Positions 1 through 23,284 of a DNA stretch of 33,863 bases are shown here, piece after piece. Under the pieces are notes generated by a model. That model was given only the letters and a program-made list of their open reading frames with translations. It was not told the DNA's origin and did no database searches. Positions within the stretch are counted from its first letter, which is position 1, and the number at the start of each line of letters is the position of its first letter. Position numbers and translations under genes: made by a program. The DNA lies in NCBI GenBank assembly GCA_949742505.1, contig CATJPU010000296.1:1-33863 (forward strand). Direction: 5' to 3'. The DNA is from an uncultured Lachnospiraceae bacterium (GTDB taxonomy: Bacteria; Bacillota; Clostridia; Lachnospirales; Lachnospiraceae).

Positions 1-471
1 GTCGGCGCAATTCCGATTCCGATTATCGTGATGGCGGTTGTGATTGTCATTGCTGTTTACCTCATGGAATTTACAAAATACGGGAGATATATCCGCGCAG
101 TGGGAGGAAATGAGCAGGCGGCTCTGGTGTCAGGAATCAATGTAAGGCTGATTAAATTTTCCGCCTATGCTATAGCGGGCGTTACTTGCGCGATCGCCGG
201 GATTCTGCTGTCGGCAAGGACTATGACCGGTCAGCCGGCATCCGGGGAAGGCTATGAGCTGGACGCCATAGCGGCGGCAGTAATCGGAGGAGCGAGCCTC
301 TCAGGAGGCGTAGGCACGATTTCCGGAACGGTTGTAGGTATGCTGATTCTGGGAGTTCTGACCAATGGCCTGGATATGCTGGGCGTGTCCTCTTATTATC
401 AGCAGGTAATTAAAGGAGTTATTATTGTAGCGGCTGTATTGCTTGACAGGAAGAAGCATTCGAACGAATGA
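1..471 (+). CDS. Sugar ABC transporter permease, RbsC type (3' part only)
   Basis: The reading frame is open from base 1, so this is the C-terminal part of a gene that begins outside the window; the ATG at 28 in the ORF track is internal. The residues resemble the last half of RbsC/BPD_transp_2 family permeases: an EAA-loop-like stretch (GRYIRAVGGNEQAA), several hydrophobic helices, the conserved ASLSGGVGTISGT segment and a short charged tail (LLDRKK). Such proteins form the membrane channel of ribose/xylose-type sugar ABC importers. It lies 49 bp upstream of the matching substrate-binding protein, so the two belong to one importer operon; the ATPase must lie further upstream. The transported sugar cannot be read from this fragment. 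Confidence 0.9.
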   Translation, partial: VGAIPIPIIVMAVVIVIAVYLMEFTKYGRYIRAVGGNEQAALVSGINVRLIKFSAYAIAGVTCAIAGILLSARTMTGQPASGEGYELDAIAAAVIGGASLSGGVGTISGTVVGMLILGVLTNGLDMLGVSSYYQQVIKGVIIVAAVLLDRKKHSNE

Positions 472-520: not shown

Positions 521-1495
521 ATGAAAAAGAGATGGTTGGCAGGAATGTTAGCGGTAATGATGGTGTTTGGTTTGCTGGCCGGGTGCGGTTCGTCTGGAAC
601 AGAGGAGAAAACCGGCGGGGAAGAGACGGAAAAGGAAGAGAGCGATAAAGAGCAGGTCACCGTTGCATGTACCTGGCAGGATTTGGCAAATGAGTACATC
701 ATGCAGCTTGCAGAGGTAGCGGAGAGTTACTGTGAGGAAAAGGGGTATAACTATGTATCCGCTGACGGCCAGGGCGACGCGGATAATCAGGTATCCCAGG
801 TTGAGAATTTCATTACGCAGGGCGTAGATGCAATTGTACTGAATCCGTATGATAAGGACGGCTGCATTCCCTGTGCTCAGAAAGCGGCGGAGGCAGGGAT
901 TCCGATTGTAGTAGTTTGTACGCAGTTATCAGATTTAAGTTCCGCGACTGCATTTGTAGGTTCTAACGATGTGGAAGCCGGAGAGATTGAGATGCAGATG
1001 GTTGCAGACGCGATTGGGGGAAAGGGCGATATCGCGGTAATTCTGGGACCCACCGGTATTTCAGCGCAGGCAGACAGAAGCAAGGGAATCCAGAATATTC
1101 TTGATAAATATCCGGACATCAACGTTATTTACGAAGAAAGCGCCAACTGAGACCGTGCAGAGGCTATGACCCTCATGGAGAACTGGCTGCAGACCGGAAA
1201 GACAATCAACGCAGTAGTTGCCCAGAATGATGAGATGGCCATTGGGGCATATAATTCGATAGCGGCGGCAGGCAAACAGAACGATATTCCAGTGGTAGGA
1301 ATTGATGCGATTGCAGATGCATTAAAGTCAGTGGAAGATGGCGGACTTCTCTGCACCGTATTCCAGAATGCGACGGCACAGTCTCAGACTGCGATCGATG
1401 TTGCGGTGCAGGCCGCTCAGGGTGAAGAAGTGGACGACTGGTATGATGTTCCCTTTGAACTGGTAACCAGTGAAAATGTTGCAGACTATAAATAA
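521..1495 (+). pseudogene. Sugar-binding lipoprotein (RbsB-like) interrupted by an in-frame TGA
   Basis: The frame runs from ATG 521 (good AAAGGAG upstream) to 1495 and would encode 324 aa, normal for periplasmic-binding-protein family 4 (RbsB-like). It begins with a lipoprotein signal (LLAGC, lipidated Cys near residue 22) and an acidic linker. One TGA at 1148-1150 cuts it at residue 209; the frame resumes at once with DRAEAMTLMENWL and the usual AQNDEMAIGA and VVGIDAIADA motifs. In this family the interrupted position is normally Trp, so TGG to TGA is the simplest reading. The ORF track splits it into 521-1150 and an internal 1166-1495. If the stop is real, the second lobe is lost and the importer lacks a working receptor. 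A sequencing error is possible; selenocysteine is unlikely at a Trp position. Confidence 0.85.
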
Positions 1496-1522: not shown

Positions 1523-3985
1523 ATGAAGGATTTAATGATGCAGTGCCTGGAGCTTTTGGAGGATGAGACGCAGACGTCTCCCCGAATCCAAAAACTGCGC
1601 GAACAGTATTTTGCAGTGGACCCGTCCATTTGCGCCGAAAGAGGAGTGCTGATTACAGAGTCTTATAAAGAGACAGAGGGAGAACCCCAGGTACTTAGAA
1701 GGGCAAAAGCCCTGGATAAGATTTTAAGTGAGATGACGATCTATGTAAATGACGGAGGACTTCTGGTTGGGAATTTGGGTTCTGTTCCGCGTTCTGCACC
1801 GGTTTTTCCGGAATTTGCAGTAGACTGGATTGAAAAGGAGCTGAATGGAGACCCTTACTATTTCCCAGACAGGCCGGGGGATGCGTACCAGATTGACGGG
1901 GAAACAAAACGCGTTCTCCTGGAAGATGTGATTCCTTACTGGAAAGGCAAGACTCATGAGGACCGGGTGAAACTGCTGCTTCCAGAGGAAGCCAAAATTG
2001 CCTGCCAGCAGGTCCGGGGCTCTGATGAGGACTGGATTATGACAGGGGGAGACGGACATATCATCGCTGATTACAGAAGAGTTATCAGAGAGGGACTGTC
2101 AGGGGTTATCAGACAGGCGGAAGATGTGCTGGCATCCTTAGAGCCGACTTTTCCAGAGGACATTGAGAAGATTCCATTTCTCAAGGCGGCGATTATTGCA
2201 GATAAAGCAGTGTTAAAGTTCGCAGCCCGGTATGCGCAAGAATTAAGAGAGCAGATGCAGCAGGAACCGGATGGGCGCAGAAAGAAAGAGCTGGAGGAAA
2301 TGGCTGAGATTTGTGACAGAGTGCCGGCGCAGCCCGCGCGTACCTTTCAGGAGGCCTGTCAGACTATGCTGTTTGTAAATTTTTCAATCCAAATTGAAAG
2401 CAACGGTCATTCCATTTCCTTTGGACGCATTGACCAGTATTTATATCCGTTCTTTATCAGGGATATCGAAGAGGGCAGACTGGATGTAGAGAAAGCATTT
2501 GATATTATGTGCTGTATGTGGCTGAAGGTGAATGAGCTGTCGAAGCTTAGAGACTGGCCAAATACAGTGACCTTTGTAGGAAATCCCCTGTTCCAGAATA
2601 TGACCCTGGGCGGGCAGACAAGGGACGGACGGGATGCAGTCAACGAGTTGTCTTATATGGCCCTTGCCTGTACGAAAAAGCTGAAGATGATACAGCCGTC
2701 TATGACGGTACGCCTGTATCAGGGAACGGACAGAAAATTTATCAAAGAAGCGGTAAAAGTAATTCGAAGGGTGGGAAGCATGCCGGCATTCTTTAATGAC
2801 GAGGTAATTATTCCTTCCATGCTGAATATCGGTTATACATATGATGACGCAGTAGATTATGGAATGGTTGGATGTGTGGAACCGGCTGTTCAGGGCTGCG
2901 GAGGCGGCCGTTACGGCGCTGGTTTTCCGAATTTTGCAAAGTGGGTAGAGTTAGCCGTTAACGGAGGAAAGGACCCGAGGACAGGGATTACCTGCCAGCC
3001 CCAGGAGAAAGATTTGAGCCAGTGTGAGACCTTTGAGGAATTTATGGAATGCTTCCGGCTGCAATTGCGTTATTTCCAGAGAATGCATGTGATATGCGGC
3101 AATGTTGTGGATACTTCATGGGGTGAAATGACGCCGAATCCGTTCCTTTCTTCGGTAGTGGAAGACTGTATCGGCCGGGGAAAGGAAATCAAGCAGGGCG
3201 GTGCGAAATACGACAATACAGGAGGCCAGAATGTAGGAGTTATCTCGGCTGCCAATGCGCTGGCCACAATTAAGAAGGTGGTATTTGACGATAAGGCAGT
3301 CTCGGCAGAACAGTTAATGCACGCGCTGGCGACGAATTTTGAAGATATGGAGACGACGCCAAACGGAGAAGTTATCCGTCAAATTCTGGTAAATGCCGAC
3401 AGCAAATTCGGCAATGACAATGATATGGCTGACGGGATTGCAGCGGATATTATGCGTTATTTTGCAGAGGAAGAGCGCCAGTATATTAATACCAGATACG
3501 GGAAAGGACCAGTTGGCGGACATTTTATTCCTTCTACGGCTACCGTTTCGGCAAATGTCGGAAACGGTGAATGCGTAGGTGCGACAGCGGACGGAAGAAA
3601 GGGCGGAGAACCGATTACGGAAGGGACCTCTGCATTCCGGGGAACGGATAAGGAAGGCCCGACAGCGCTCTTAAATTCCTATGCGAAGCTGCCTAATGTA
3701 CTGATGCCGGGCGGACAGTTATTTAACGTGAAGATTACGCCGTCTTCAGTGGATACGGAAGAGGGACTGGATAACTGGGTATCGCTGATTACGACGCTGT
3801 TTGCAAAGAAGGGGATGCAGATTCAGTTTAATATCGTGTCGGTGGAGACGCTGCAGGAGGCTAAGGAAGAACCTGAGAAGTATAAGGATTTGATTGTGCG
3901 GGTGGCCGGGTTCAGCAGTTATTTTGTAACTCTTTGCCCGCAGGTGCAGGAAGATATTATTGCAAGGACGGAGCATGTGCTCTGA
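1523..3985 (+). CDS. Glycyl radical enzyme of the dehydratase/C-O lyase type (PFL-like family)
   Basis: This 820-aa protein is a full-length glycyl radical enzyme. The thiyl-radical Cys lies in GCVEP (Cys451, Glu453), the Cys-x-Glu pattern of the glycerol dehydratase, choline lyase and related eliminases rather than the Cys-Cys of true pyruvate formate-lyase. The C-terminal loop is VRVAGFSSYF (Gly796 the predicted radical), with Phe where Tyr is common. Other family landmarks are GDGHIIADY and ESNGHSISFGRIDQY. The start at 1523 has a GAGGAG site 7 nt upstream. A cognate activase follows after a repeat element, then an FGGY kinase, with a sugar ABC importer before it; this suggests a sugar- or polyol-derived substrate. 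Recently described relatives open phosphorylated 1,5-anhydrohexitols (YbiW/PflD), but subclass cannot be fixed by eye. Confidence 0.9.
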   Translation: MKDLMMQCLELLEDETQTSPRIQKLREQYFAVDPSICAERGVLITESYKETEGEPQVLRRAKALDKILSEMTIYVNDGGLLVGNLGSVPRSAPVFPEFAVDWIEKELNGDPYYFPDRPGDAYQIDGETKRVLLEDVIPYWKGKTHEDRVKLLLPEEAKIACQQVRGSDEDWIMTGGDGHIIADYRRVIREGLSGVIRQAEDVLASLEPTFPEDIEKIPFLKAAIIADKAVLKFAARYAQELREQMQQEPDGRRKKELEEMAEICDRVPAQPARTFQEACQTMLFVNFSIQIESNGHSISFGRIDQYLYPFFIRDIEEGRLDVEKAFDIMCCMWLKVNELSKLRDWPNTVTFVGNPLFQNMTLGGQTRDGRDAVNELSYMALACTKKLKMIQPSMTVRLYQGTDRKFIKEAVKVIRRVGSMPAFFNDEVIIPSMLNIGYTYDDAVDYGMVGCVEPAVQGCGGGRYGAGFPNFAKWVELAVNGGKDPRTGITCQPQEKDLSQCETFEEFMECFRLQLRYFQRMHVICGNVVDTSWGEMTPNPFLSSVVEDCIGRGKEIKQGGAKYDNTGGQNVGVISAANALATIKKVVFDDKAVSAEQLMHALATNFEDMETTPNGEVIRQILVNADSKFGNDNDMADGIAADIMRYFAEEERQYINTRYGKGPVGGHFIPSTATVSANVGNGECVGATADGRKGGEPITEGTSAFRGTDKEGPTALLNSYAKLPNVLMPGGQLFNVKITPSSVDTEEGLDNWVSLITTLFAKKGMQIQFNIVSVETLQEAKEEPEKYKDLIVRVAGFSSYFVTLCPQVQEDIIARTEHVL

Positions 3986-4060
3986 TCTTCTGGTGAACTG
4001 TGTCTTTCAGGCGGGCCGCAGTGCATGTCTATGGATTGCGAAGACAGATGTATAATGCAG

Positions 4061-4256
4061 AAAAAGAGGCTGTACTAGAGCGTGTTTGAAAATTCATTCC
4101 TACAATATGCCGCCCAACTTCACACCAGATTTTACGCTGAATTTGGTCAATGTAGTCCGCTACGCCTCCCAAATCCAGCATAAAATCTGATATAAATTGG
4201 GACGACATCTTGCAGAAAGCAATTTTCAAACACGCTCTAGAAATATGGCCTCTTTT
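4061..4256. terminator. Possible interrupted terminator stem flanking the MITE-like element
   Basis: AAAAGAGGC at 4062-4070 is complementary to GCCTCTTTT at 4248-4256, just outside the MITE-like element. Without the element the two arms would form a short A/U-flanked hairpin after the radical-enzyme gene, like a small intrinsic terminator. Either the element landed in a terminator loop or these arms belong to the element's own family. No direct target-site duplication is obvious apart from the palindromic CTAG ends. Confidence 0.4.
4075..4240. mobile_element. MITE-like element with 20-bp perfect terminal inverted repeats
   Basis: The segment starts with CTAGAGCGTGTTTGAAAATT and ends with its exact reverse complement. 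The symmetry continues inward for about 75 bases per arm with scattered mismatches (for example CAGATTTTACGCTG against CAGATTTTATGCTG), so the transcript would fold into one very long hairpin. There is no room for a transposase. This is the build of a non-autonomous element moved in trans. It separates the radical-enzyme gene from its activase. Its right end also adds an in-frame upstream extension to the activase ORF (track start 4197), which should not be taken as protein. Confidence 0.8.
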
Positions 4257-4271
4257 AGTGAGGAGAAAAAG

Positions 4272-5162
4272 ATGAGCGATACTGGGAAAATATTTAATAT
4301 TCAGAAATTCAGCACCCATGACGGACCCGGTATCCGTACAGTAGTATTTTTGACGGGGTGTCCGATGCGCTGTATCTGGTGTTCTAATCCAGAGTCTCAG
4401 GAGAGGTCCGGCGCCATACTCTGGGATGAGAGAAAATGCATCGGATGCGGACTCTGTGTGCAGGCATGCGCGCACGGCATTATTCCGGGAATGCAGGGAA
4501 TTGATGAAAGATGTATCCGGTGCGGGGAATGTGTGAAGCGCTGTCCCTCTACGGCGCTTGAGCAGATGGGCGAGGATATGGCGGCGGAGAAGGTCATGGA
4601 AGCGGTCAGGAAGGATAAGGCATTCTACCAGGAGTCAGGCGGGGGAATTACGATCTCCGGGGGAGAGCCTCTTATGCAGCCGGAATTTGTGACTGCGCTG
4701 GCACAGGAAGTAAAAAGAGAAGGATATCATCTTGCAATTGAGACAACCGGATATGCGGACTGGAGCGCGGCGGACAGAGTATTCGGGCTGTGTGATATGA
4801 TTCTGTATGATATTAAGCATATGGATTCCGTACAGCACAGGAAATATACAGGGGTGCCGAATGAAAGGATTCTGGAGAATGCACGCCAGGCGGGAAGGAA
4901 GGGGTATCCGTTGATTTACCGGGTTCCGCTGCTTGGCGGAGTGAATGCAGATATGGAAAATATGAGAGCGCTGGGGGAGTTCGCGATAGAAACAGGAGTG
5001 AAGGAGATCCATCTTCTGCCCTATCATACCTACGGAGAGAATAAATATAAACTGCTTCGGACCAGGTATCGGTGTAATGCATATCGTCCGTCTGAGAGCA
5101 AAATCAATGATATACGCAAGCTGTTGGAAAGAAAGGGATTTGCGGTAAAAACAGGAGGCTGA
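4272..5162 (+). CDS. Glycyl radical enzyme activase (radical SAM)
   Basis: This 296-aa radical SAM enzyme uses S-adenosylmethionine to abstract hydrogen from the glycine of the partner encoded upstream. The SAM cluster motif is CPMRCIWC (C-x3-C-x2-C) near residue 35, after HDGPGIRT. It is followed by an inserted two-cluster ferredoxin domain (CIGCGLCVQAC and CIRCGECVKRC), as in activases of dehydratase-type glycyl radical enzymes. ISGGEP and later LLPYHTYGENKY are also family-typical. I place the start at ATG 4272 because GAGGAG lies directly upstream; the longer ORF start at 4197 is inside the repeat element. The 286-bp gap from its partner gene is unusual for such pairs and is explained mainly by the element. 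Confidence 0.93.
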   Translation: MSDTGKIFNIQKFSTHDGPGIRTVVFLTGCPMRCIWCSNPESQERSGAILWDERKCIGCGLCVQACAHGIIPGMQGIDERCIRCGECVKRCPSTALEQMGEDMAAEKVMEAVRKDKAFYQESGGGITISGGEPLMQPEFVTALAQEVKREGYHLAIETTGYADWSAADRVFGLCDMILYDIKHMDSVQHRKYTGVPNERILENARQAGRKGYPLIYRVPLLGGVNADMENMRALGEFAIETGVKEIHLLPYHTYGENKYKLLRTRYRCNAYRPSESKINDIRKLLERKGFAVKTGG

Positions 5163-5289
5163 AAGCGGAATAAGAATAACGGTTCAGGCAGTCTGGTGCC
5201 TTGATGGATTTGGCTGTAAGAAAGCGATAGACAGCAGAGCGAGGTTGTCCGGACTATAGTAAAAAAGGATTGGATTAGGAGGAAACGGT

Positions 5290-6831
5290 ATGGCATATTT
5301 TATGGGAATTGACGCCGGGACAAGCGGTATTAAGTCAGCAGTTATTGATGAGGAAGGGACGGTTCTGGCAATCGGGTATGAGGAATGCGATATTATTACG
5401 CCAAGGCCCGGCTGGGTAGAGCAGAATCCAAAAGACTGGTGGAAGGTATGCAATAGAGCAGTAAAACAGGCTGTGGAGAAAAGCGGAGTGGGAGAAGAAA
5501 TTCAGGGAATCGGGTTCTCCGGGCAGATGCAGGGATGCGTACTTATGGGAAAGGACGGAGAGGCAATCGGCAACTGCCTGATTTGGCTGGATCAGCGTTC
5601 AACGGCTCAGGTAAAGCAGATTGAAGAGCTGATGAGCGAGGAAGAGATGCTGTCCATTACAGGAAGCACCTGTCTGAACAGCTACCTGGCTCCGAAGCTG
5701 CTGTGGCTGAAGGAGAACAGGGCTGAAGATTTTGAAAAAGCAGATTCAGTGATTTTTCCGAAGGACTATTTAAGATATTGCATGACGGGAGAGATTGCGA
5801 CGGAGGTTAGTGACGCTTCCTTGTCCTTCCTGCTGGATGTGCCAAAAAGAAAATGGTCAGATACGATTGCAAAGAAACTGGGAATCCCGGAATATCTCCT
5901 GCCTGAGAGATTGCTGGAATCTCAGGACACAGCCGGATATCTGAGAGAGTCTGTAGCCAGAGAATGGGGGATTAAGCCAGGAATCCCAGTGGTTGCCGGA
6001 GGCGGAGATCAGCCGGCCGGAGGCATCGGCATGGGAATCGTGGAAGAAGGGATTATCGGTTCTACTATCGGGACATCGGGAGTTATCTTTGGGTGTACTG
6101 ACAGGCCGTTTGAGGACAGGCAGAAGCGGGCGGTTATGAGCATGTGCCACGCAGTACCCGATAAATGGTGTTTTTTAGGACTTGCGCTGGCGTCTGGCGG
6201 TTCCTTTAAATGGCTGAGGGATACGTTATTTGCAGACAAGAAAGTGGAGATGGCGGCGAAAGGGCTGGATGTATACGATTATATGACCGGGCTGGCGGGC
6301 GGAGCCGCGCCGGGAAGCGAGGGACTGACATTTCTTCCATATTTTAATGGAGACAAGACTCCGATTAACGACGAGAATGCGAGGGCTGTATTCTTTGGAT
6401 TGTCTTACCGTCATGGCTTAGAGGCAATATGCAGAAGCGTGATGGAAGGAGTAACGTTCTCTTTGAGGGATACCATAGAAATCTGCCGGGAAAAGGAGAT
6501 GCAGGTGACAGAGGTGCGGGCCGCCGGAGGAGGAGCTAAGAGCGCTCTGTGGCGTCAGATTCAGGCAGATATCTATCATGCAAGGGTTGTTACCACGAAT
6601 ATGGAGGAAAGCGGCTGCGCGGCCGGAGCCATTATGGCGGCTGTGGGAACGGGACATTTTAAGGATATCAAAGAGGGATGCGGCGCGATATTGAGAGTTC
6701 AGAATATCACAGAGCCGATTGCAGAGAATGTGAAGATTTATGACGAGTACTATGAGACTTACCGGAATTTGTATCCGGCGCTGAAGGAAAGCTACGGAAG
6801 GCAGGCAGAGATTGTTGCAAAATATTTTTAA
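5290..6831 (+). CDS. FGGY-family carbohydrate kinase, xylulokinase-like
   Basis: This 513-aa protein should phosphorylate a sugar or polyol with ATP in the cytoplasm. The N-terminal phosphate loop MGIDAGTSGIKSAVID, the catalytic-Asp segment GGGDQPAGGIG (Asp240) and the adenosine motif GGGAKSALWRQIQADI are all present, in an order and length typical of XylB-like FGGY kinases. The start at 5290 has TTAGGAGGAAAC upstream. It follows the activase by 127 bp and ends at a terminator, so it is the last gene of the locus. Substrate cannot be assigned: D-xylulose is the default family guess, but the radical-enzyme context makes another ketose or polyol possible. Confidence 0.9.
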   Translation: MAYFMGIDAGTSGIKSAVIDEEGTVLAIGYEECDIITPRPGWVEQNPKDWWKVCNRAVKQAVEKSGVGEEIQGIGFSGQMQGCVLMGKDGEAIGNCLIWLDQRSTAQVKQIEELMSEEEMLSITGSTCLNSYLAPKLLWLKENRAEDFEKADSVIFPKDYLRYCMTGEIATEVSDASLSFLLDVPKRKWSDTIAKKLGIPEYLLPERLLESQDTAGYLRESVAREWGIKPGIPVVAGGGDQPAGGIGMGIVEEGIIGSTIGTSGVIFGCTDRPFEDRQKRAVMSMCHAVPDKWCFLGLALASGGSFKWLRDTLFADKKVEMAAKGLDVYDYMTGLAGGAAPGSEGLTFLPYFNGDKTPINDENARAVFFGLSYRHGLEAICRSVMEGVTFSLRDTIEICREKEMQVTEVRAAGGGAKSALWRQIQADIYHARVVTTNMEESGCAAGAIMAAVGTGHFKDIKEGCGAILRVQNITEPIAENVKIYDEYYETYRNLYPALKESYGRQAEIVAKYF

Positions 6832-6938: not shown

Positions 6939-7066
6939 AAAAGATACAGAAAGTATTATTTTGCATTTTGCGGAAATAAAGTCGTAATTGGAGATTGACG
7001 ACGTATATTTTACTGAATATTAGCAGTTCAAAAAAGAACAAATTAAAGAAAATTGAGGCGAATGAT

Positions 7067-8704
7067 ATGTCAGGAGTGAAGCAGACCGGCGCAAATTCCG
7101 GTTCGGCGCAATCTGTTGCCGCAGCATCGGTAATGGATGCCAGAATTGCTAAGAAAAGCGCGGAGCTAGAAGCGGGGCAGGTTTTGATTACAGAGACTGC
7201 GAAACAGGCAGCGCAGGCGAGACAGGAGCTAGAGCGGGAGCGTACAGAGAAGGAAACAGAAAAAGATTACGAGAGAGACGGGGAGGATGACAAGAAGGAT
7301 ACGTCGGAACTGTCGAAACAGAGTAAGTGGTTTGGAATAGAGGGGAAACTGCCGGAGAATATTGACGTCAGATGGACGCTTGAGATGATGCAGGAACTGT
7401 GGGAGGCGATGCAGCGCTGGATGCCGGTAAAGGATCAGCCGCTGGCTGCTCAGCTGGAGGAATTATCAAAGCTTTATCTTGCGCTTTTGGAGGCGATTTT
7501 AACCCATACGATGGGAGAAGAACAGGCGGCGCAGGCAGAGAGGCTGAATGCGGTTCTTGCGGAGAAGTTAAATCTTCTGCTGCAGGTAGATTTGAAAGAC
7601 TTAAAAGAGCTGTTAGAGAAGACCGGCCAGACCGATACGCTGAATCTTGTGAAAGCAAGTATCTACAGACAGACGACAGGAGAGTCTATATCCGGGAGGG
7701 CGGCATCTAAGTTCTATGCACAGGGCAATACGGCGTCGTTTCGAAGTTCCCGCTATTTTATGCCGGAATTAACGGGACAGGGAGGAAGCCGCAGCACAGG
7801 TTCTGCGTCAGAACGCGGCGGCGTGTATTCCGGAGGAGCCATGGGGATGAACGAAGGAAGAATCTATAAGCTGGCGGACGGCAGGAGCGTTCAGATGAAT
7901 CAGGCATTTGACACCCAGAGAAAATTGGGCGAACTGCAGATAAGCCAGAGAGGCAGGGCGCTGGGCGGAACAGGGGAAGGCGGTTACGGCGCAGGAGGCA
8001 TTTCAGTGGGGAAGACGGCGTTTTCAGGGAAGGAGCTGGAGGAGGCGAATCGTCTTGCCGCCCATGTGAATGGCAGCGGTAATTTGCTGAAGCATGCCGG
8101 AATTGGCGCGCAGAATGATGAGGTAAAAGGACTCATTGCTGCGATTACCAATTTGAAAGGGCAGGTGTATGCGGCAGGGGCCGATAGGAATAACAGCATG
8201 GTAACTCCCTTAAGGAATGCGATAAACCAGATGGTGGATTATTATCTTACGCAAAAGGGAATGTATAAGGTGTATTATCACACAACCGGCGTTTATGAGC
8301 AGACGAAAAATTCGCAGAAAGCCATAGAAGAGGGGCTGGAATATGCGTACCGCCTGTTTATTGAGAAGAAGGCGGATGAAGCGTACCATATGCAGGAAGC
8401 TTATTCTGACAGAGCCGGTTTCTTTCAGATGCTTCTAAAAGGGCAGACCATACAGGCGGATTTGATACAGGGAATGCGGCTTTTGGAGAAGAACTGGCAG
8501 GAATTTCTGCGGGCAATCGGAGAGAATGAAAAGCGGGGAATCGTGCTGAAGATGCAGAAATACAGTCCATGGGGAGTTCTGGCGGAACCGGAAGAGATAA
8601 AGAGAGAGGCAAAGCAAAAGAGAAGCAGGATGGTTCTGATTGAGGCGGCATGTATAGCGGCGGTGATACTTGTTTATATTTGTTACCGCATATTTTGGGG
8701 ATAG
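7067..8704 (+). CDS. Unrecognised C-terminally membrane-anchored protein
   Basis: I do not recognise this 545-aa protein. From ATG 7067 (weak GAGGCG site; the track start at 6995 would add 24 aa with no good site) it has a Ser/Ala/Gly-rich N-terminus, a charged Glu/Lys/Arg stretch around residues 65-105 likely to be coiled coil, and a helical Leu-rich region about 120-215. A Gly/Ser-rich middle (about 240-330) is followed by a second helical half. One strongly hydrophobic segment lies at the very end (EAACIAAVILVYICYRIFWG). There is no signal peptide, so it would be a tail-anchored protein with most mass in the cytoplasm. It stands alone between a promoter and a decayed gene. No catalytic motif was seen. 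Confidence 0.75.
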   Translation: MSGVKQTGANSGSAQSVAAASVMDARIAKKSAELEAGQVLITETAKQAAQARQELERERTEKETEKDYERDGEDDKKDTSELSKQSKWFGIEGKLPENIDVRWTLEMMQELWEAMQRWMPVKDQPLAAQLEELSKLYLALLEAILTHTMGEEQAAQAERLNAVLAEKLNLLLQVDLKDLKELLEKTGQTDTLNLVKASIYRQTTGESISGRAASKFYAQGNTASFRSSRYFMPELTGQGGSRSTGSASERGGVYSGGAMGMNEGRIYKLADGRSVQMNQAFDTQRKLGELQISQRGRALGGTGEGGYGAGGISVGKTAFSGKELEEANRLAAHVNGSGNLLKHAGIGAQNDEVKGLIAAITNLKGQVYAAGADRNNSMVTPLRNAINQMVDYYLTQKGMYKVYYHTTGVYEQTKNSQKAIEEGLEYAYRLFIEKKADEAYHMQEAYSDRAGFFQMLLKGQTIQADLIQGMRLLEKNWQEFLRAIGENEKRGIVLKMQKYSPWGVLAEPEEIKREAKQKRSRMVLIEAACIAAVILVYICYRIFWG

Positions 8705-9856: not shown

Positions 9857-11069
9857 ACGGTTGCGGCGAAAATTTATTGTGATTACCATGTGTTCCATCT
9901 TAGCGGTTCTCGGAGGAATCATTGGGGGGATTAATCTGGCCAATTATATCAGTATTAATCAGAGGGCAGACGAGAAGCTGACCCTGCTGATGGAAAACAG
10001 AGGTCAGTTTCCGCGTCAGGGGGAAGAACCAGAGAAGAAGCCGCTTCCTCCCGGTATGTCTCCGGAGGCGCCTTTTGAAACCCGTTATTTTACAGTAACG
10101 GTAAATGCAGAGAATAAAGTGGTTTCAGCGGATTTAGGAAGAATTGCGGCAGTCTCCCGCCAGACGGCGGAACGCTATGCAGTTGAACTGTATGAGAAGG
10201 GTGAGAAAGAAGGCTTCAAAGAGTATTATAAGTACCGGGCGGTTGAAGAGGAAGAGGGGATTATGTATGTATTTCTGGACTGCGGGCGCGAGTTGTCCAC
10301 ATTTTATTCATTTTTAGGTATGAGTATCTTCATTAGTCTGTGCGGCTTATCGCTGGTTTTTATCCTGGTATTATTTTTCTCAAAACTGGCGGTAGGGCCG
10401 GTTGCGGAAAGCTATGAGAAACAGAAACAGTTTATTACAGACGCCAGTCATGAGATTAAGACGCCGCTTACGATTATTGACGCCAATACGGAAGTGCTGG
10501 AGTTGGAAAATGGGGAAAATGAGTGGACTGCCGGGATTAAAAATCAGGTGCGGCGGCTGAACTCCCTGACAGAGAAGCTGGTATTCTTATCCCGAATGGA
10601 GGAGGAACAGACGAAACTTCAGATACAGGAATTTTCGATTTCTGAAACTGTTTTGGAAATCGTGCAGTCATTTGAACCGGTAGCAGAGATGAAAGGAAAG
10701 GACTTTCAGGCGGAGGTCCCGCCGAATCTTTTCTATTATGGGGATGAAGTAATGTTCCGGAGGATGCTAACCCTTCTGCTGGATAACGCGGTAAAGTATT
10801 CCAGTGAGAATGGTGTGATAAGACTGACTCTCCGGAAAACAGAGAAACATGTAGAACTTGTGCTATGGAATACAGTGCCGGAAATCCGGCAGGGGAATCA
10901 GGATATCTTGTTTGAGCGGTTTTACCGGCCAGACTCCTCCCGTAATTCCGAGACAGGAGGATATGGGATTGGATTGTCGGTGGCAAAAGCTATTGTGACG
11001 GCGCATAAAGGGAAAATACATGCCAGGAGCGGGGATGGGAAATCCATAGAGTTTCAGATTGTGCTGTAG
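9849..11069 (+). CDS. Sensor histidine kinase
   Basis: This 406-aa membrane kinase is the partner of the preceding regulator; ATG 9849 overlaps the regulator stop. It has an N-terminal membrane helix (about 12-33), an extracytoplasmic region of roughly 125 residues with a Pro/Glu-rich segment, and a second helix (about 155-180). The phosphoacceptor His201 lies in SHEIKTPLT; the ATPase domain has an N box (DNAVKYSS) and G box (GGYGIGLSVAKAIV). A HAMP domain is not obvious between TM2 and the H box. The ORF track start at 9822 lies within the regulator gene. The signal it senses is not evident. Confidence 0.92.
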   Translation: MIKRLRRKFIVITMCSILAVLGGIIGGINLANYISINQRADEKLTLLMENRGQFPRQGEEPEKKPLPPGMSPEAPFETRYFTVTVNAENKVVSADLGRIAAVSRQTAERYAVELYEKGEKEGFKEYYKYRAVEEEEGIMYVFLDCGRELSTFYSFLGMSIFISLCGLSLVFILVLFFSKLAVGPVAESYEKQKQFITDASHEIKTPLTIIDANTEVLELENGENEWTAGIKNQVRRLNSLTEKLVFLSRMEEEQTKLQIQEFSISETVLEIVQSFEPVAEMKGKDFQAEVPPNLFYYGDEVMFRRMLTLLLDNAVKYSSENGVIRLTLRKTEKHVELVLWNTVPEIRQGNQDILFERFYRPDSSRNSETGGYGIGLSVAKAIVTAHKGKIHARSGDGKSIEFQIVL

Positions 11070-11103
11070 ACAGAAAATTCAGAAATTAGGAGGAATTAAA
11101 CGA

Positions 11104-11820
11104 ATGGATATTCAGAATGTATTTCAGAGGTATGAGATAAAGTATATGATTTCTAAGGAGCAGCAGGAGAGGATACTGCGAGGGATGGAGGCATATATGG
11201 AGGGGGATGCTTATGGGCGGAGTACGATTTGTAATCTGTATTTTGATACGGATAATTATCTGCTGATACGGCGTTCGCTGGAACATCCGGTGTATAAGGA
11301 GAAACTGCGGCTTAGAAGCTATGGGACGGCGAAGCCGGATAGTCAGGTGTTTATGGAATTGAAGAAGAAATATCAGTCGGTAGTTTATAAGCGGCGGATT
11401 GGAATTACGGAGAGGGAGGCTATGCGGTGCCTGCGGGGGGAAGAGTCTCTTATGGATACGCAGATTGGGCGGGAGATGGATTATTTTCTCCGGCAGTATC
11501 AGTATCCCCGGCCGGCGGTATTTCTTTCTTATGAAAGGGAAGCTTTTTACGAGAAGGGCGACAGGGATTTCAGGGTTACGTTTGATGAGAATATTCTTTG
11601 GCGGGATTCGGAATTGTCTCTTCTCGAGGGGCCTTACGGTACACCGGTTCTGGATGAGGGGCAAGTGCTGATGGAGATTAAGACCGGCGCGGCAATCCCT
11701 TTGTGGATGACGGCGCTGCTGACAGAGAATCATATTTATAAAACTTCGTTTTCAAAATACGGAACAGTATATCAGAACCTTTGCGAAAATCAAATGGGAG
11801 GAATGTGTTATGCCGGATAA
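11104..11820 (+). CDS. VTC-domain (polyphosphate polymerase-like) protein
   Basis: This 238-aa soluble protein resembles the VTC tunnel domain of eukaryotic Vtc4 and its bacterial relatives. Family signs are the basic N-terminal motif FQRYEIKYMIS, the LYFDTDNY strand, KEKLRLRSYG, MELKKKYQSVVYKRR and the late acidic MEIKTGAAIP with FSKYGTVY at the end. The domain binds polyanions and in Vtc4 polymerises phosphate from ATP; in bacteria of this type the activity is largely unproven. The start at 11104 follows TTAGGAGGAATT. It overlaps the DUF4956 gene by 11 bp, implying translational coupling, and lies 34 bp after the histidine kinase. Confidence 0.85.
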   Translation: MDIQNVFQRYEIKYMISKEQQERILRGMEAYMEGDAYGRSTICNLYFDTDNYLLIRRSLEHPVYKEKLRLRSYGTAKPDSQVFMELKKKYQSVVYKRRIGITEREAMRCLRGEESLMDTQIGREMDYFLRQYQYPRPAVFLSYEREAFYEKGDRDFRVTFDENILWRDSELSLLEGPYGTPVLDEGQVLMEIKTGAAIPLWMTALLTENHIYKTSFSKYGTVYQNLCENQMGGMCYAG

Positions 11821-12505
11821 GGTGTTTGGAGGAATATTTGACAATGGAGGAGCGGCGGTGATTGCGGTGCCGGATTTCCTGATTTGCGTAGGCGTGTCGC
11901 TGGTTATCGGCGTATTCTTAGCGCTGGTTTATACATATCGGAGCCGGTATACGAAGAGCTTTGTGATTACTCTTGCAATTCTTCCGGCGGTGGTCTGCGT
12001 GGTGATTATGATGGTAAATGGAAATGTAGGGGCGGGCGTTGCCGTGGCGGGAGCGTTCAGTCTGGTACGTTTTCGCTCCGCACCCGGGACGGCGAAGGAA
12101 ATCGGCACGATTTTCCTTGCAATGGGAGCGGGACTGATTGCAGGTATGGGATATCTGGGGTATGCGGTATTATTTTCCCTTTTGCTGGGATTGGTGATGC
12201 TGTTTTATCAGAAGATTGGACTTGGGGAGACGAAGGGAGCGTCCAGAGAGAAGACGCTGCACATTACCATTCCGGAGGATTTGGATTATACGCAGGTGTT
12301 TGACGACCTGCTGGAGAAATATACCAGCGCGGCGGAGGTGGTGTCGGTGAAGACGACGAATATGGGGAGTTTGTTCAAACTGACATATCAGATGACATTG
12401 AGGAATGTGACAGAAGAAAAGGAATTGATTGACGCTCTGCGCTGCAGGAACGGCAATCTGGAAATCAGCATTACCAGACAGGAGGCGGCGGTCTATGAGC
12501 TGTAG
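11810..12505 (+). CDS. DUF4956 family membrane protein
   Basis: This 231-aa protein has about four hydrophobic segments in its first 140 residues and a soluble C-terminal domain (about 150-231) with an alternating beta pattern. The conserved SLVRFRSAPGTAKEIG stretch between helices marks DUF4956, a family usually encoded next to VTC-domain proteins, as here. The start overlaps the VTC gene, with GGGAGGAA just upstream. I infer that the VTC protein works at the membrane with this partner, but no biochemical role is established to my knowledge. Confidence 0.85.
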   Translation: MPDKVFGGIFDNGGAAVIAVPDFLICVGVSLVIGVFLALVYTYRSRYTKSFVITLAILPAVVCVVIMMVNGNVGAGVAVAGAFSLVRFRSAPGTAKEIGTIFLAMGAGLIAGMGYLGYAVLFSLLLGLVMLFYQKIGLGETKGASREKTLHITIPEDLDYTQVFDDLLEKYTSAAEVVSVKTTNMGSLFKLTYQMTLRNVTEEKELIDALRCRNGNLEISITRQEAAVYEL

Positions 12506-13749
12506 GAAGAAAATTATTTCAGGATGCATACTTTTGGCGGTATGTGCATGGCTGATAACGGGATGTGCTTCCCCGGAGAAAACGGAGGATAAGAAGGCGG
12601 AGGAGAATGCAGCAGAGTCCGGCTCAGATACGATAGATACTAGTGAGATGTTTTCAAATCGCGGATGGGATGTTCACCCTGTCTTCCGGCAAAGATGGGA
12701 TTCAATCGGATTATGGAACAGAGACAGAAGAAACTCCGGAGGGCAAAGGATTTATCTACATCGCAGGAGGGAAGTTTCAGATTACGGCGGGGGACGACGG
12801 ACTGCAGGCATCTTCCTTTGTCCGAATCGCGGACGGGACATTACAGATTGCGGCGGAAGACGACGGGATTCACGCAGACGGAGAGGCTGCTGTACACAGT
12901 GGGGAGCTCATCATTTCAAAGAGTTATGAGGGAATCGAGGGACAGACGGTGGAGATTACCGGCGGAAATATTCAGATACTATCTGCGGATGACGGGCTGA
13001 ATGCTTCCAGCGGAAACGGGCAGAATCATACTGCTGGCGGGCAGAGAGAAGAGCCATTTGCATCAGATGAGGATTGTGTGATTCAGATATCCGGCGGCAA
13101 TATAGTAATCAATGCTTCCGGCGATGGGATTGATTCCAATGGCAATCTCTATGTGTCCGGAGGAGAGACTTATGTATACGGTCCGGAAAACGACGGCAAC
13201 GGCGCTCTGGATTACGCGGGAGAGGCAGAGATAACCGGGGGCGTATTCGCCGCTTCGGGAGCCGGCGGGATGGCGCAGAATTTCGGGGAGAGTTCTTCGC
13301 AGGGAGCAATGCTGGCGACGCTTCAGGAATGGGCGGAGGGAACGGCGGCGCTGACGGACAGCTCCGGCGCGGAGGTGTTCTCCTGCACGCCGGAAAAGAA
13401 ATATAATTCTATTCTCATCAGCACGCCGGATATACAGGAAGGAGAGACGTATACCTTAACGGCCGGAGAACAGCAGGTTACCGTAGAGATGACGGGACTG
13501 ATATACGGCGCCGGAGGAATGGGCGGAGGAATGGGCGGAGGAATGGGCGGCGGAATGGGCCGGCCAGGACAGGGAGGAATGCCGGAAGATATGGGAGGAC
13601 AGCCGGGAGAAGGAATGGAAACGCCCGGGGGTATGGGAGAGCGTCCGGCAGGAGAGATGGAGCCGCCGGGAGACATGGGAGGTCCGCACGAGGGAGGAAT
13701 GGAGCCGCCGGACTTCATTTGGCAAAGTACTAATAGTTCCATGGCGTGA
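12495..13749 (+). pseudogene. Beta-helix-like carbohydrate-binding lipoprotein with an internal out-of-frame deletion
   Basis: The gene starts at ATG 12495 (AGGAGG 10 nt upstream, overlapping DUF4956 by 11 bp) with a lipoprotein signal ending LITGC and a linker to DTSEMFSNR. After about 12660 the sensible protein continues only in the +1 frame as IADGMFTLSSGKDGIQ and repeated GG-x-I/F-x-I/V-x-x-x-DDG units, then a Gly/Met-rich tail with GGGM repeats. In relatives I know of this type, the DTS(E/D)MF segment is followed by well over 100 residues before the first DGxFxxxSGKDGI repeat, so the join looks like a deletion that also shifts frame. The ORF track shows it as two pieces (12429-12929 and 12643-13749). 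The second has no signal peptide, so a working surface protein is unlikely unless frameshifting occurs. Confidence 0.75.
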
Positions 13750-13904: not shown

Positions 13905-14861
13905 ATGACGGGAAGGATATGTGGAACAGGATTCTGTGTGCCGCATCGTGTGATGGACAATGAAGAGCTAGCCCGCATGGTGGAGACCAGCGATGAATGG
14001 ATAAGGGAGAGAACCGGCATTGCAAAACGCCGTATCATTACGGAAGAAACTACCGTATCCATGGCGGCAGAGGCGGCTAAGCAGGCGCTTGCGGACGCGG
14101 GAATCGCAGCGGAGCAGGTGGAGCTCATTATGACAGCGACCATTTCTTCCAATGTAATTCTTCCCTGCGCGGCCTGTGAAGTGCAGAAGGAAATCGGAGC
14201 ATTAAGCGCAGCGTGTTTTGACATAAATGCAGCCTGCTGCGGGTTTCTGACAGCCTACCAGACGGCGCAGGCATACATAGAGGCAGGAATCTACCAGACG
14301 ATTCTGATTATCGGAAGCGAGAGCTTGTCAAAGCTGACCGACTGGAAGGACAGGGGAACCTGCATTCTGTTTGGCGACGGCGCAGGAGCGGCGGTACTGA
14401 AGGCGGGGGAGGGAGAAGGCTTTCGCAGCATCCTGCATTCTGACGGCGGCAGAGGAGAAGCTCTCACCTGCAGCGGTAAGCACTGGAAGTCGGGTGAAGA
14501 CGACACAGGATTTATGAAAATGGACGGCAGGGAGGTATTTCAGTTTGCAGTAAAACGAGTGCCGGAGGTAATCAGAGAGGTATTGGAATTAAATCACTGC
14601 AGTCTGGAAGAAATCGACTATTTTGTGGTTCATCAGGCTAACCGCAGAATCATAGAAAGCGTAGCCAGACGGCTGGGAACGGATGTTCAAAAGTTTCCAA
14701 TGAATCTGCAGGATTACGGCAATACTTCCTCCGCAAGTATCCCTATATTATTGGCGGAGCTTAGGAGGAACGGCACATTGAAGAAAGGAGACCGGATTCT
14801 GATGGCAGGATTCGGAGCAGGGTTATCCTGGGGAGCCGGAATTGCCGACTGGGGAATTTAG
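13905..14861 (+). CDS. fabH: 3-oxoacyl-ACP synthase III
   Basis: FabH condenses an acyl-CoA primer with malonyl-ACP to start each fatty acid chain. The 318-aa protein has the thiolase-fold catalytic triad: Cys111 in NAACCGF, His in VVHQANRRI and Asn in DYGNTSSASIP. SDEWIRERTGI near residue 30 and the C-terminal GFGAGLSWG are typical. The start follows GAAGGAG, 8 nt away. It is the first gene of the operon, directly behind the FabT-type promoter. Confidence 0.96.
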   Translation: MTGRICGTGFCVPHRVMDNEELARMVETSDEWIRERTGIAKRRIITEETTVSMAAEAAKQALADAGIAAEQVELIMTATISSNVILPCAACEVQKEIGALSAACFDINAACCGFLTAYQTAQAYIEAGIYQTILIIGSESLSKLTDWKDRGTCILFGDGAGAAVLKAGEGEGFRSILHSDGGRGEALTCSGKHWKSGEDDTGFMKMDGREVFQFAVKRVPEVIREVLELNHCSLEEIDYFVVHQANRRIIESVARRLGTDVQKFPMNLQDYGNTSSASIPILLAELRRNGTLKKGDRILMAGFGAGLSWGAGIADWGI

Positions 14862-14881
14862 TGTATCCGGGAGCGCACCCT

Positions 14882-14936
14882 ATGGCCATTCGGCCATTTC
14901 ACAATGTTTGGATTATAATGCTGTAAGAGCATTTTA
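14882..14936 (+). promoter_or_regulatory. Two tandem hairpins in the fabH-acpP spacer
   Basis: ATGGCC-ATTC-GGCCAT (14882-14897) and AATGCT-GTAAG-AGCATT followed by TTT (14917-14936) are both perfect 6-bp stems. The second resembles a weak attenuator or terminator, and a TATAAT at 14914-14919 overlaps it without a good -35 box. An ATCAAAA half-site like those in the fab promoter follows. The pair may set the relative level of acpP mRNA by partial termination or processing. Confidence 0.4.
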
Positions 14937-14980
14937 ATCAAAAATAAATGAAGAGTAAAATGAAAAGGAGAGAAAGAAAC

Positions 14981-15205
14981 ATGTTAGAGAAAATACAGGA
15001 AATGATTGTTGACGCGCTTGGAGTAGATGCGGCAAAGGTAACGGAAACAGCATCCTTTAAGGAGGATTTGGGAGCAGATTCTTTGGATTTATTCGAGCTG
15101 GTGATGGCTCTTGAGGATGAATACGGGGTAGAGATCCCGACGGAAGAGCTGGAGAAGATGGTTACCGTCGGAGACGTTGTAAAATACATCGAGCAGAATC
15201 AGTAG
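14981..15205 (+). CDS. acpP: Acyl carrier protein
   Basis: This 74-aa acidic protein carries growing acyl chains on a 4'-phosphopantetheine arm attached to Ser34 in [10 protein letters not shown]. Four-helix ACP features are clear: hydrophobic helix I, the [16 protein letters not shown] helix II and a C-terminal [11 protein letters not shown] place the start at ATG 14981, with AAGGAGAG about 9 nt upstream; the ORF track start at 14948 adds 11 basic residues absent from ACPs. It is the shared substrate carrier for every Fab enzyme in the operon. Confidence 0.96.
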
Positions 15206-15244
15206 CGGCGCGGAAATTATGGAGATATGCCGAGGAGGATAGGT

Positions 15245-16183
15245 ATGAAAACCGAGATAACAAAATTATTGGGAATCCAGTATCCGATTATACAGGGCGG
15301 CATGGCCTGGGTGGCGGAGTGTCATCTGGCGGCGGCTGTTTCCAATGCGGGAGGATTAGGCTTAATCGGCGCGGCAAACGCGCCGGCGGAGTGGGTTCGC
15401 GAGCAGATTCGGGAAGCGAAGAAGCTGACGGATAAACCGTTTGGCGTCAATATTATGCTGATGAGTCCCTACGCGGATGAGGTAGCGAAGATTGTTGCGG
15501 AAGAACAGGTGAAGGTCGTGACTACCGGAGCAGGGAATCCTGAGAAATATATGAGTATGTGGAAAGAAGCCGGAATTAAGGTGATTCCGGTGGTTGCTTC
15601 CGTAGCGCTGGCAAAGCGTATGGAGCGCTGCGGCGCGGATGCGGTGGTAGCAGAGGGATGTGAGGCAGGAGGACATATTGGGGAAACCACGACCATGGTA
15701 CTGGTGCCCCAGGTTGCAGAGGCAGTAAAGATTCCGGTGGTTGCCGCAGGAGGAATCGCAGACGGAAGAGGAATTGCCGCGGCATTTATGTTGGGAGCAA
15801 AGGGTGTGCAGATGGGAACGCATTTTGTGGTGGCAGACGAATGTATTGTTCACGATAATTACAAAGAGCGTATCCTAAAGGCAAGCGATATTGATACCAG
15901 AGTAACCGGAAGAACCACCGGGCATCCGGTCCGGGCCCTCAGGAATGAAACGACAAGAAAATACTTAGAGTTGGAGAAAGCAGGAGCTTCCTTTGAAGAA
16001 TTAGAAAAGCTTACTCTTGGCGGACTTAGAAAAGCCGTAGTAGACGGTGATGTGAAGACGGGAAGCGTGATGGCAGGCCAGAGCGCAGGTATGGTAAGAG
16101 AGAGAATGTCCTGCAGGCAGCTGATTGAGAAGCTTGTCAGGGAGACGGACGGGCTGATGAAAGGATGCGGATGTTATGAGTAA
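15245..16183 (+). CDS. fabK: Enoyl-ACP reductase II (FMN-dependent)
   Basis: FabK reduces trans-2-enoyl-ACP in the last step of each elongation cycle. The 312-aa TIM-barrel protein belongs to the nitronate monooxygenase/FabK flavoprotein family: PIIQGGMAWVA at the N-terminus, GCEAGGHIG (flavin-site His region), PVVAAGGIADGRG and LGAKGVQMGT. Its place between acpP and fabD supports FabK over nitronate monooxygenase. The start at 15245 has GAGGAGG 6 nt upstream; the track start at 15227 lies before that site. A FabK-type reductase is not expected to be sensitive to triclosan, unlike FabI. The gene overlaps fabD by 8 bp. Confidence 0.93.
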   Translation: MKTEITKLLGIQYPIIQGGMAWVAECHLAAAVSNAGGLGLIGAANAPAEWVREQIREAKKLTDKPFGVNIMLMSPYADEVAKIVAEEQVKVVTTGAGNPEKYMSMWKEAGIKVIPVVASVALAKRMERCGADAVVAEGCEAGGHIGETTTMVLVPQVAEAVKIPVVAAGGIADGRGIAAAFMLGAKGVQMGTHFVVADECIVHDNYKERILKASDIDTRVTGRTTGHPVRALRNETTRKYLELEKAGASFEELEKLTLGGLRKAVVDGDVKTGSVMAGQSAGMVRERMSCRQLIEKLVRETDGLMKGCGCYE

Positions 16184-17096
16184 GATTGCATTTATCTATC
16201 CCGGGCAGGGAGCGCAGAAGGCCGGAATGGGAGCTGATTTCTATGAAAACAGCGAGATCGCAAGAGCCATTTACGACGAGGCGTCCCGGGTGCTGGGACT
16301 GGATATGAAGGAGCTGTGTTTTGAGCAGAATGACAGGCTGGATATGACGGAATATACCCAGGCAGCCATGGTAACTACCTGTCTTGCCATGACCAGAGTG
16401 ATAGAAGAAATGGGCGTAGAACCGGACGTTACGGCCGGGTTAAGCCTTGGCGAATATTGTGCCGTTGCTGTCTCGGGAGGTTTTGACGATATGGATGCGG
16501 TCAGAACGGTAAGAATCAGAGGGATTCTGATGCAGAATACGGTTCCTGCCGGAGAAGGCGCGATGGCGGCCGTTATGGGAATGGAAAAGGAAGCCATCGA
16601 ACATGTATTAGCGTCCATGGAGGATGTAACTATTGCAAATTACAATTGTCCGGGACAGATTGTTATTACCGGAAGGACAGGAGCGGTACAGGAAGCCTGT
16701 GGCCGGCTGAAAGAGGCAGGGGCAAGACGCACGATGCCATTAAAAGTCAGCGGCCCGTTCCATTCGCCTATGCTTGCTGAGGCAGGGAAGGAGCTGGCGA
16801 AAGAGTTGGAGAAGTCAGCGTGGAAGAGCCTTGCGATTCCTTATGTGACGAATGTGACGGCAGAGGAGGTAACTGATATATCAAAGACGCCGAAGCTTCT
16901 CGTCCGTCAGGTCAGCGCGCCGGTAAAGTGGGAGCAGAGCATGGAAACCATGATTCGAGCCGGGGTGGACGCCTTTGTAGAAATCGGTCCGGGCAGGACT
17001 CTTACCGGTTTTTTGAAGAAGATTGCGCCAGAGAAGAAAGTTCTTCAGATTGGAACATGGCAGGATATTGAGAAGGTACTTCAGGAACTAAAGTAA
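16176..17096 (+). CDS. fabD: Malonyl-CoA:ACP transacylase
   Basis: FabD moves malonyl from CoA to AcpP, supplying the extender unit. The 306-aa protein has the N-terminal [12 protein letters not shown], nucleophile Ser90 in GLSLGEY, where GHSLGEY is more usual, a conserved Gln11, and the catalytic-His segment SGPFHSPM. The C-terminal [14 protein letters not shown] is family-typical. It overlaps the fabK end by 8 bp, so it is probably translationally coupled. Confidence 0.95.
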
Positions 17097-17119
17097 TGTG
17101 GCGTAGGAGGAGAGAAAGC

Positions 17120-17860
17120 ATGTTAGAAGGTAAGATTGCGGTTGTCACCGGAGCATCCCGGGGAATCGGAAGAGCAATTGCCCTGGAACTGGCGGCCAGA
17201 GGAGCGGAGGTTATTATCAATTATAACGGTTCTGCTCAGAGCGCCGGGGAGGTTAAGCAGGAAATAGAAGAAAAAGGCGGAAAGGCAGAGACCGTTCAGT
17301 GCAACGTGGCGGATTCCAGCCGGTGCACAGAATTTATCAGCGAAGTGATAAAGAACTATGGACGGATCGACATTCTGGTAAATAATGCAGGAATTACCAG
17401 AGACGGTTTGCTGATGAAGATGTCGGAGAAGGATTTTGACGACGTGGTTGCGACTAATCTGAAGGGCACATTCAATACCATACGCGCGGTCTCCCGTCAG
17501 ATGATTAAACAGAAAAGCGGAAGAATTATCAACATGTCTTCGGTGGTGGGAATTTGCGGAAACGCAGGACAGGTCAACTATGCGGCGTCGAAAGCAGGTA
17601 TTATCGGCGTGACCAAATCTGCGGCAAAAGAAGTTGCTTCAAGGGGGATTACCGTCAATGCGGTGGCTCCCGGATTTGTCGGTACGGAGATGACGGCAGT
17701 GCTTTCTGATAAAGTAAAAGAAGAATCCATCAGGCAGATTCCATTAGGAAGGTTCGGGAAACCGGAGGATATTGCAAAAACAGTAGCGTTTCTTGCATCG
17801 GAAGAAGCGGGCTATATTACCGGGCAGGTGATTCAGGTAGACGGAGGATTGGCAATATGA
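17120..17860 (+). CDS. fabG: 3-oxoacyl-ACP reductase
   Basis: FabG reduces 3-oxoacyl-ACP with NADPH. This 246-aa short-chain dehydrogenase has the Rossmann motif [16 protein letters not shown] at about residue 88, catalytic Ser141 (MSSVVG), Tyr154 and Lys158 (YAASK), and the C-terminal [13 protein letters not shown] start it at ATG 17120, after GGAGGAGAG; the track start at 17096 overlaps the fabD stop and adds a basic stretch not found in FabG. It overlaps fabF by 4 bp (ATGA). Confidence 0.96.
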
Positions 17861-19101: not shown

Positions 19102-19146
19102 AGACGAATCGCTTGAAAGCGATAGAAGTCGTTGAGGATAGAGAAG

Positions 19147-19569: not shown

Positions 19570-19579
19570 GAGGAAGACG

Positions 19580-20008: not shown

Positions 20009-20017
20009 GTGGCGGAT

Positions 20018-23245: not shown

Positions 23246-23254
23246 GAAAATTAG

Positions 23255-23284
23255 TTGATTCTTTCCCCGGAAAGTGGGTATAAT
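23255..23284 (+). promoter_or_regulatory. Promoter for the fabT-like regulator
   Basis: TTGATT (23255-23260), an 18-nt spacer and consensus TATAAT (23279-23284) lie just after the accDA stop. The predicted transcript starts about 110 nt before ATG 23404 and includes the structured leader. Confidence 0.65.

Follow-up and report, generated by a model that had tools for sequence, protein, structure and literature searches.

Which compound is handled by a glycyl radical enzyme (GRE) that is encoded between a sugar importer and a sugar kinase and that falls outside the named subgroups of its family? The question is raised by a stretch of 33,863 nucleotides, hereafter the window, which is the whole of contig CATJPU010000296.1 (C296) in an 82%-complete assembly of 351 contigs (GCA_949742505.1) from an uncultured Lachnospiraceae bacterium. 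The original prediction pointed to an uncharacterised sugar or polyol pathway at positions 1523 to 6831, a span that holds the enzyme (GRE2) and an FGGY kinase and, as found here, also the activating enzyme AE2; the importer genes lie upstream of it. The importer, the kinase and the subgroup placement of GRE2 support such a pathway. We tentatively propose, at somewhat short of even confidence in the route as a whole, that a pentitol would be converted to 1-deoxy-D-xylulose, then to 1-deoxy-D-xylulose 5-phosphate (DXP) and finally to acetyl-CoA and glyceraldehyde 3-phosphate. Taken together, the tandem structure of the locus, a kinase that stays fixed while the GREs are swapped, and an operon in which an ortholog of GRE2 is encoded with a thiamine pyrophosphate (TPP)-dependent dehydrogenase complex suggest this specific pathway. 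The locus belongs to a known enzyme class, to which a hypothetical route is assigned here.

Active site and subgroup of GRE2

GRE2 is encoded by an intact open reading frame (ORF) for 820 amino acids (1523 to 3985, forward strand), in which Pfam recognises the PFL-like (E 1.1e-203) and Gly_radical (E 5.2e-30) domains. The Cys-x-Glu active site of an eliminase, which had been predicted from the motif GCVEP, is present with Cys451 (codon 2873-2875) and Glu453 (codon 2879-2881), and the glycyl loop RVAGFSSYF, which reads RVAGYSAxF in most relatives, contains Gly796 (codon 3908-3910). The relay of the diol dehydratases is retained, with Cys451, Glu453, His179, His296, Ser297 and Gly796 aligning to Cys433, Glu435, His164, His281, Ser282 and Gly763, respectively, of the B12-independent glycerol dehydratase (GDH). 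The activase AE2 is encoded downstream (4272 to 5162, forward strand); it has Radical_SAM and Fer4 domains with ferredoxin-type 4Fe-4S motifs and scores 339.6 bits against TIGR02494 (cut-off 174.35). GRE2 is confirmed by Pfam, NCBIfam, its residues and an AlphaFold2 model as a glycyl radical enzyme of the eliminase class with a dedicated activase.

With regard to the subgroup, trees, curated models and pocket residues support a position of GRE2 outside the glycerol/propanediol, YbiW, PflD, HypD, CutC and sulfonate subgroups, in agreement with the original prediction. The only NCBIfam assignment is the subfamily TIGR01774, and GRE2 scores far under every equivalog cut-off, namely those of HypD (554.7 bits, cut-off 1100), CutC (549.1, cut-off 1050), the sulfopropanediol dehydratases (587.7 and 553.9, cut-off 1000), the arylacetate decarboxylases and pyruvate formate-lyase. 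The HypD, CutC, sulfonate and arylacetate identities were discarded on these scores. The AlphaFold2 model (mean pLDDT 90.1) matches GDH best (1r8w, TM 0.94/0.98), with 1,2-propanediol dehydratase (PD) and YbiW close behind, and 1r8w is also the best sequence match in the PDB (643.9 bits); since GRE2, GDH, PD and YbiW share one fold, the structural match does not discriminate between substrates. The pocket was read from the alignment only. In it, Asn156 and Asp447 of GDH, which we take to be substrate residues, are replaced by Trp171 and Gly465, and the Gly at the place of Asp447, together with a nearby Arg, is common to GRE2, YbiW and many relatives.

In a quick tree of 48 sequences, GRE2 pairs with a protein from another genome, G758 (SH-aLRT 100), and the pair sits in a larger clade that includes YbiW (SH-aLRT 100) and excludes GDH and PD. 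Approximately unbiased (AU) tests, applied to groupings that were set after this tree had been seen, reject as one clade both GRE2 with the YbiW group (p about 1e-37) and GRE2 with the GDH/PD group (p = 0.0005). Membership in a known subgroup together with its substrate residues, which the original prediction had named as what would overturn it, was thus not found. A glycerol or propanediol dehydratase identity was rejected in view of the pocket residues and the tree, and identity as a YbiW ortholog in view of the tree and the gene context. About 1,650 genome searches, at the levels of genus, family, order, class and phylum, returned one ortholog above 50% identity, the G758 protein (59%). Close relatives were absent from viral contigs, and the genome contig collection gave a single match, 37% identical. 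The GREs found on plasmids are all less than 60% identical to GRE2, and those examined lie in pdu microcompartment or allose-type loci (L125 and L126: pdu microcompartment genes in Citrobacter, allose genes on a Chloroflexota plasmid).

Two modules and one type of kinase

Because the window starts at a contig end, the importer ATPase, the regulator and the remaining permease lay beyond it and were not truly absent. A search for RbsC in the same genome revealed that bases 1 to 99 of the window are identical to the last 99 bases of contig C120, with the RbsC frame kept. The sugar permease RbsC2 has its C-terminal part at 1 to 471 (forward strand; BPD_transp_2 in Pfam) and its N-terminal part in the last ORF of C120. 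Assemblers based on k-mers leave such exact overlaps at graph junctions, and the join of C120 to C296 is therefore strong but inferred. The order on C120 is a DeoR regulator (reverse strand), AE1, RbsA1, RbsC1, the substrate-binding protein SBP1, GRE1, kinase1, a D-lyxose-isomerase family protein, a LacI regulator, RbsA2 and the start of RbsC2. The upstream search that had been recommended for the ATPase, regulator and aldolase accordingly located RbsA2, LacI and the rest of the permease beyond the overlap, and the aldolase was missing: FsaA-type aldolase and phosphotransferase system (PTS) genes are found neither in the window nor on C120, and the window itself, as had been noted, has no aldolase.

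Joined in this way, the locus would be the second of two adjacent GRE modules. The two kinases are 86.2% identical, as opposed to 36.5% for GRE1 and GRE2, 47% for AE1 and AE2, 48.8% for RbsA1 and RbsA2 and 28% for SBP1 and SBP2. Near-identical kinases beside divergent GREs are most simply explained if the two GREs act on different substrates yet feed one kinase step, which suggests a shared compound that is made by both and taken by one type of kinase. A parallel is provided by YbiW and PflD of Escherichia coli, which both open a C–O ring to yield 1-deoxyfructose-6-phosphate (PMC12441222). Another layout of two GREs and one kinase was observed in the loci L087 and L088, where an FGGY kinase is flanked by two GREs, one of them PflD-like, all within one importer locus.

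The window kinase (5290 to 6831, forward strand) exceeds the cut-off of the XylB equivalog model TIGR01312 (472.9 bits, cut-off 380.25), and its closest relative in the PDB is E. coli XylB (2itm), in keeping with the xylulokinase-like enzyme originally predicted beside GRE2. It resembles D-xylulokinase in the equivalents of the catalytic Asp6 and Asp233 and in the conserved GGGD and GTSG motifs. The pocket motifs of xylulokinases are not retained, with GQMQG in place of GQMHG and SYLAPK in place of GFTAPK. The five kinases linked to GREs cluster in a single clade (SH-aLRT 99). Throughout this clade, Gln or Leu stands where XylB has His78, and Leu, Trp or Val stands in place of the Thr of GFTAPK; GQMHG and GFT are kept in E. 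coli XylB and in each of five further xylulokinases that were compared. One additional plasmid sequence had been translated in the wrong frame and was left out of this comparison. A survey of 295 relatives located the kinase clade in no genome other than the window's own, with two copies, and G008; GREs adjoin the kinases in both. In our alignment, His78 of XylB corresponds to Glu84 of GlpK, a position counted among the five that determine specificity in this family (PMC3245297). The pocket changes remove polar groups and would be consistent with a substrate that has one hydroxyl fewer. A plasmid-borne xylulokinase, 41.6% identical, has no adjoining GRE or TPP-complex gene.

A proposed deoxyketose pathway and its alternatives

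In the proposed pathway, the RbsABC-type importer would take up a sugar alcohol of five carbons in unphosphorylated form, with xylitol and D-arabitol as the likeliest candidates; since import is by an ATP-binding cassette (ABC) system, the substrate is expected to arrive unphosphorylated. Activated by AE2, GRE2 would strip a terminal hydroxyl by means of Cys451, Glu453 and the His179/His296/Ser297 relay, with hydrogen abstraction at C2 and loss of the C1 hydroxyl as in the diol dehydratases, and the product would be a 1-deoxyketose, putatively 1-deoxy-D-xylulose. The FGGY kinase would then phosphorylate this compound to DXP, and a TPP complex of the acetoin/pyruvate dehydrogenase type (E1 alpha/beta, E2, E3) would cleave DXP between C2 and C3, releasing acetyl-CoA, NADH and glyceraldehyde 3-phosphate. 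Xylitol and D-arabitol share the C3/C4 configuration of D-xylulose, and terminal dehydration of either would give 1-deoxy-D-xylulose, which would explain why two GREs are accompanied by one type of kinase. In its most specific form, a fermentation route in which the two GREs convert xylitol and D-arabitol to 1-deoxy-D-xylulose and an acetoin-dehydrogenase-type complex splits DXP, the proposal is rather doubtful. Enzymatic precedents exist for each step: 1-deoxy-D-xylulose is phosphorylated by E. coli XylB and is formed by pyruvate dehydrogenase from pyruvate and glyceraldehyde (PMC3424233), and a paper cited there concerns, by its title, 1-deoxyketoses formed by pyruvate and acetoin dehydrogenases.

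The last step is suggested by the G758 ortholog. One contig of that genome carries, on a single strand, a substrate-binding protein gene (cut by the contig end), the GRE, a SorC-type regulator with a sugar-binding domain, a kinase (50% identical), an activase, and E1 alpha, E1 beta, E2 and E3. This is a complete four-gene set like those of the acetoin and pyruvate dehydrogenase complexes: E3, E1 alpha and E1 beta score above the cut-offs of lipoamide dehydrogenase, TIGR03182 and a pyruvate-dehydrogenase-type subfamily, respectively. The complex is annotated as the pyruvate dehydrogenase type and differs from those systems in that its genes share a run with those of a GRE, a sugar kinase and a sugar-binding regulator. 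If cleavage is carried out by such a complex, as this operon suggests, the lack of an aldolase in the window would be explained. A kinase of 66% identity in genome G793 is divergent from a SorC-E1 alpha-E1 beta-E2-E3 run and is itself followed by a DUF4432 protein and an RbsBAC importer, with another GRE plus activase about 8 kb away. This genome surfaced in a survey of E1-beta loci and not in the kinase search; since G758 and G793 were reached via GRE and E1-beta searches, any count of the co-occurrence of kinase, GRE and E1-E2-E3 carries a bias. In the window's genome, the complex would be encoded elsewhere, on C241 (with a SorC regulator) or on C138, the contigs that carry its two E1-E2-E3 complexes. 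A second E1-E2 set with a divergent E3 was observed in G758 itself (L101, G758:C9), by a DeoR-type regulator and genes that, on reading, appear to encode polyol dehydrogenases.

Several points weigh against the pentitol route. Acetoin dehydrogenases are close kin of pyruvate dehydrogenases, and the G758 complex could simply oxidise pyruvate or acetoin; for its E1 beta, pyruvate dehydrogenase is as good an annotation as any other, and no mutual best match links the E1 proteins of the two genomes G758 and G793. A SorC-E1-E2-E3 operon also lies about 8 kb before module 1 in G008, but this adjacency alone proves little, because G003, which belongs to the same genus, shares this locus and its setting, with neither a GRE of the GRE2 lineage in the genus search nor such a kinase in the kinase search. 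The TPP complex is neither in the window nor beside it on C120, the genome's complexes being on other contigs, and the GRE2 lineage has just two known members. The D-lyxose-isomerase-like gene at the end of module 1 is at odds with a 1-deoxyketose and suggests that the kinase also takes D-xylulose. Furthermore, the RbsB-type substrate-binding lipoprotein SBP2 (521 to 1495, forward strand; Peripla_BP_4 in both halves) is interrupted by an in-frame TGA at 1148-1150, which leaves ORFs at 521-1150 and 1166-1495 that share one frame and are otherwise intact. Two homologues, from G758 and from the locus L060, have Trp at this position, and the TGA could stem from faulty assembly, from variation between strains or from decay. 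A nonsense codon in SBP2 may mean that this strain is losing module 2. The sequences show the gene set, the eliminase active site, the tandem arrangement and, in G758, the operon that includes the TPP complex; the substrate with its carbon number and stereochemistry, the order in which GRE and kinase act, the product of the kinase and the cleavage by the TPP complex are inferred.

The alternatives concern the order of the steps and the nature of the substrate. E. coli anhydroglycolysis, with YbiW and PflD as lyases of anhydroglucitol 6-phosphate (AG6P) and anhydromannitol 6-phosphate (AM6P), is likewise a sugar/polyol catabolism that relies on Cys-x-Glu GREs, and two different GREs there give one deoxyketose product that is then cleaved. 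It differs in that the substrate reaches the GRE already phosphorylated by a PTS and the product goes to an aldolase (FsaA adjoins YbiW), whereas the window locus has an ABC importer, a xylulokinase-type kinase and no aldolase, and GRE2 is about 42% identical to YbiW and in a separate clade. On this model, the FGGY kinase might act first on an imported polyol, leaving GRE2 to eliminate water from, or open a ring in, the phosphorylated compound. The larger clade that GRE2 shares with YbiW would agree with this order, as would the Gly at the place of Asp447, the nearby Arg (GGR / GYR) and a GDxH motif that both enzymes have; the Arg and GDxH features are, however, widespread in that clade among members with different neighbours. 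Near-identical kinases beside two unrelated GREs are more easily reconciled with one product common to both GREs than with a pair of polyol substrates, the window kinase matches ketose kinases, and ABC import implies unphosphorylated arrival. A phosphorylated GRE substrate, which the original prediction had suggested, has thus become less probable, and we regard the kinase-first order as unlikely. Were a free anhydro-pentitol or another cyclic ether imported instead, GRE2 could open it to the same 1-deoxyketose ahead of phosphorylation, much as YbiW and PflD open their rings, and GRE2 does fall in the YbiW half of the tree; its separation from the YbiW clade in the AU test and the fact that free anhydro-pentitols are rarer nutrients than pentitols make this very unlikely.

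The substrate could also be a hexitol or other polyol, giving a 1-deoxyhexulose or another deoxysugar, with the kinase and lyase differing accordingly. Substrates clearly vary in the GRE family, since related loci carry other C–C lyases, assigned by reading their sequences: FucA-type aldolases (L050, L060), an FsaA-like (L053) and a DeoC-like enzyme (L085), and class II fructose-bisphosphate aldolases (L093, L095). The xylulokinase (pentulose) cut-off passed by the kinase and the D-lyxose-isomerase-like gene in module 1 both indicate five carbons, and this alternative is considered distinctly improbable. Finally, GRE2 might simply be a dehydratase of glycerol or 1,2-propanediol whose neighbours have nothing to do with it. 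It shares with the known dehydratases of these compounds the fold, the relay and the glycyl loop, and GDH is its best match in sequence and structure, but it has lost Asn156 and Asp447, the GDH/PD grouping is rejected, its neighbours are different and, as had been observed before, no microcompartment or aldehyde dehydrogenase genes lie near it in the window or on C120; an ordinary dehydratase is therefore highly improbable.

DXP is a precursor of isoprenoids and vitamins. If the pentitol route holds, a radical route would serve sugar alcohols, perhaps including xylitol and others from the diet, sparing the usual polyol dehydrogenase, and acetyl-CoA would be formed directly, with an isoprenoid precursor burned as fuel. 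The pathway was not found described in the literature searched, most subscription journals being outside that search. The proposal gives a testable function to an uncharacterised GRE branch in sugar-importer operons, and the layout of constant kinase and variable GRE offers a handle on the substrates of related orphan GREs. The varied lyases of the related loci hint at a family of pathways that deoxygenate, phosphorylate and cleave.

Other features of the genome and the window

The window's genome also encodes four further GREs of the Cys-x-Glu type, on C125, C141, C120 and C245. C301 has a PFL-like match, and C297 has, separately, a short ORF with a glycyl-radical domain. Between GRE2 and AE2 lies a near-palindromic, MITE-like fold-back element of 166 bp (4075 to 4240) with 72-nt arms that are 81% complementary (DNA fold z = -8.8). 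Its 17-nt terminus is present in four IMG/VR contigs, and the element has no plasmid match. No Rfam RNA was found in the window or on C120; a skipping-rope RNA (RF02924, 40.4 bits) was observed on contig C241, at 17190-17274 of the locus L097.

Beyond the locus, a 569-aa protein without a Pfam match (6995 to 8704) lies between the kinase and a two-component system, after which VTC-domain, DUF4956 and Cthe_2159 proteins are encoded consecutively (11059 to 13749). The region from 13905 to 23883 is taken up by an unremarkable type II fatty-acid synthesis cluster that includes acetyl-CoA carboxylase and a MarR regulator.

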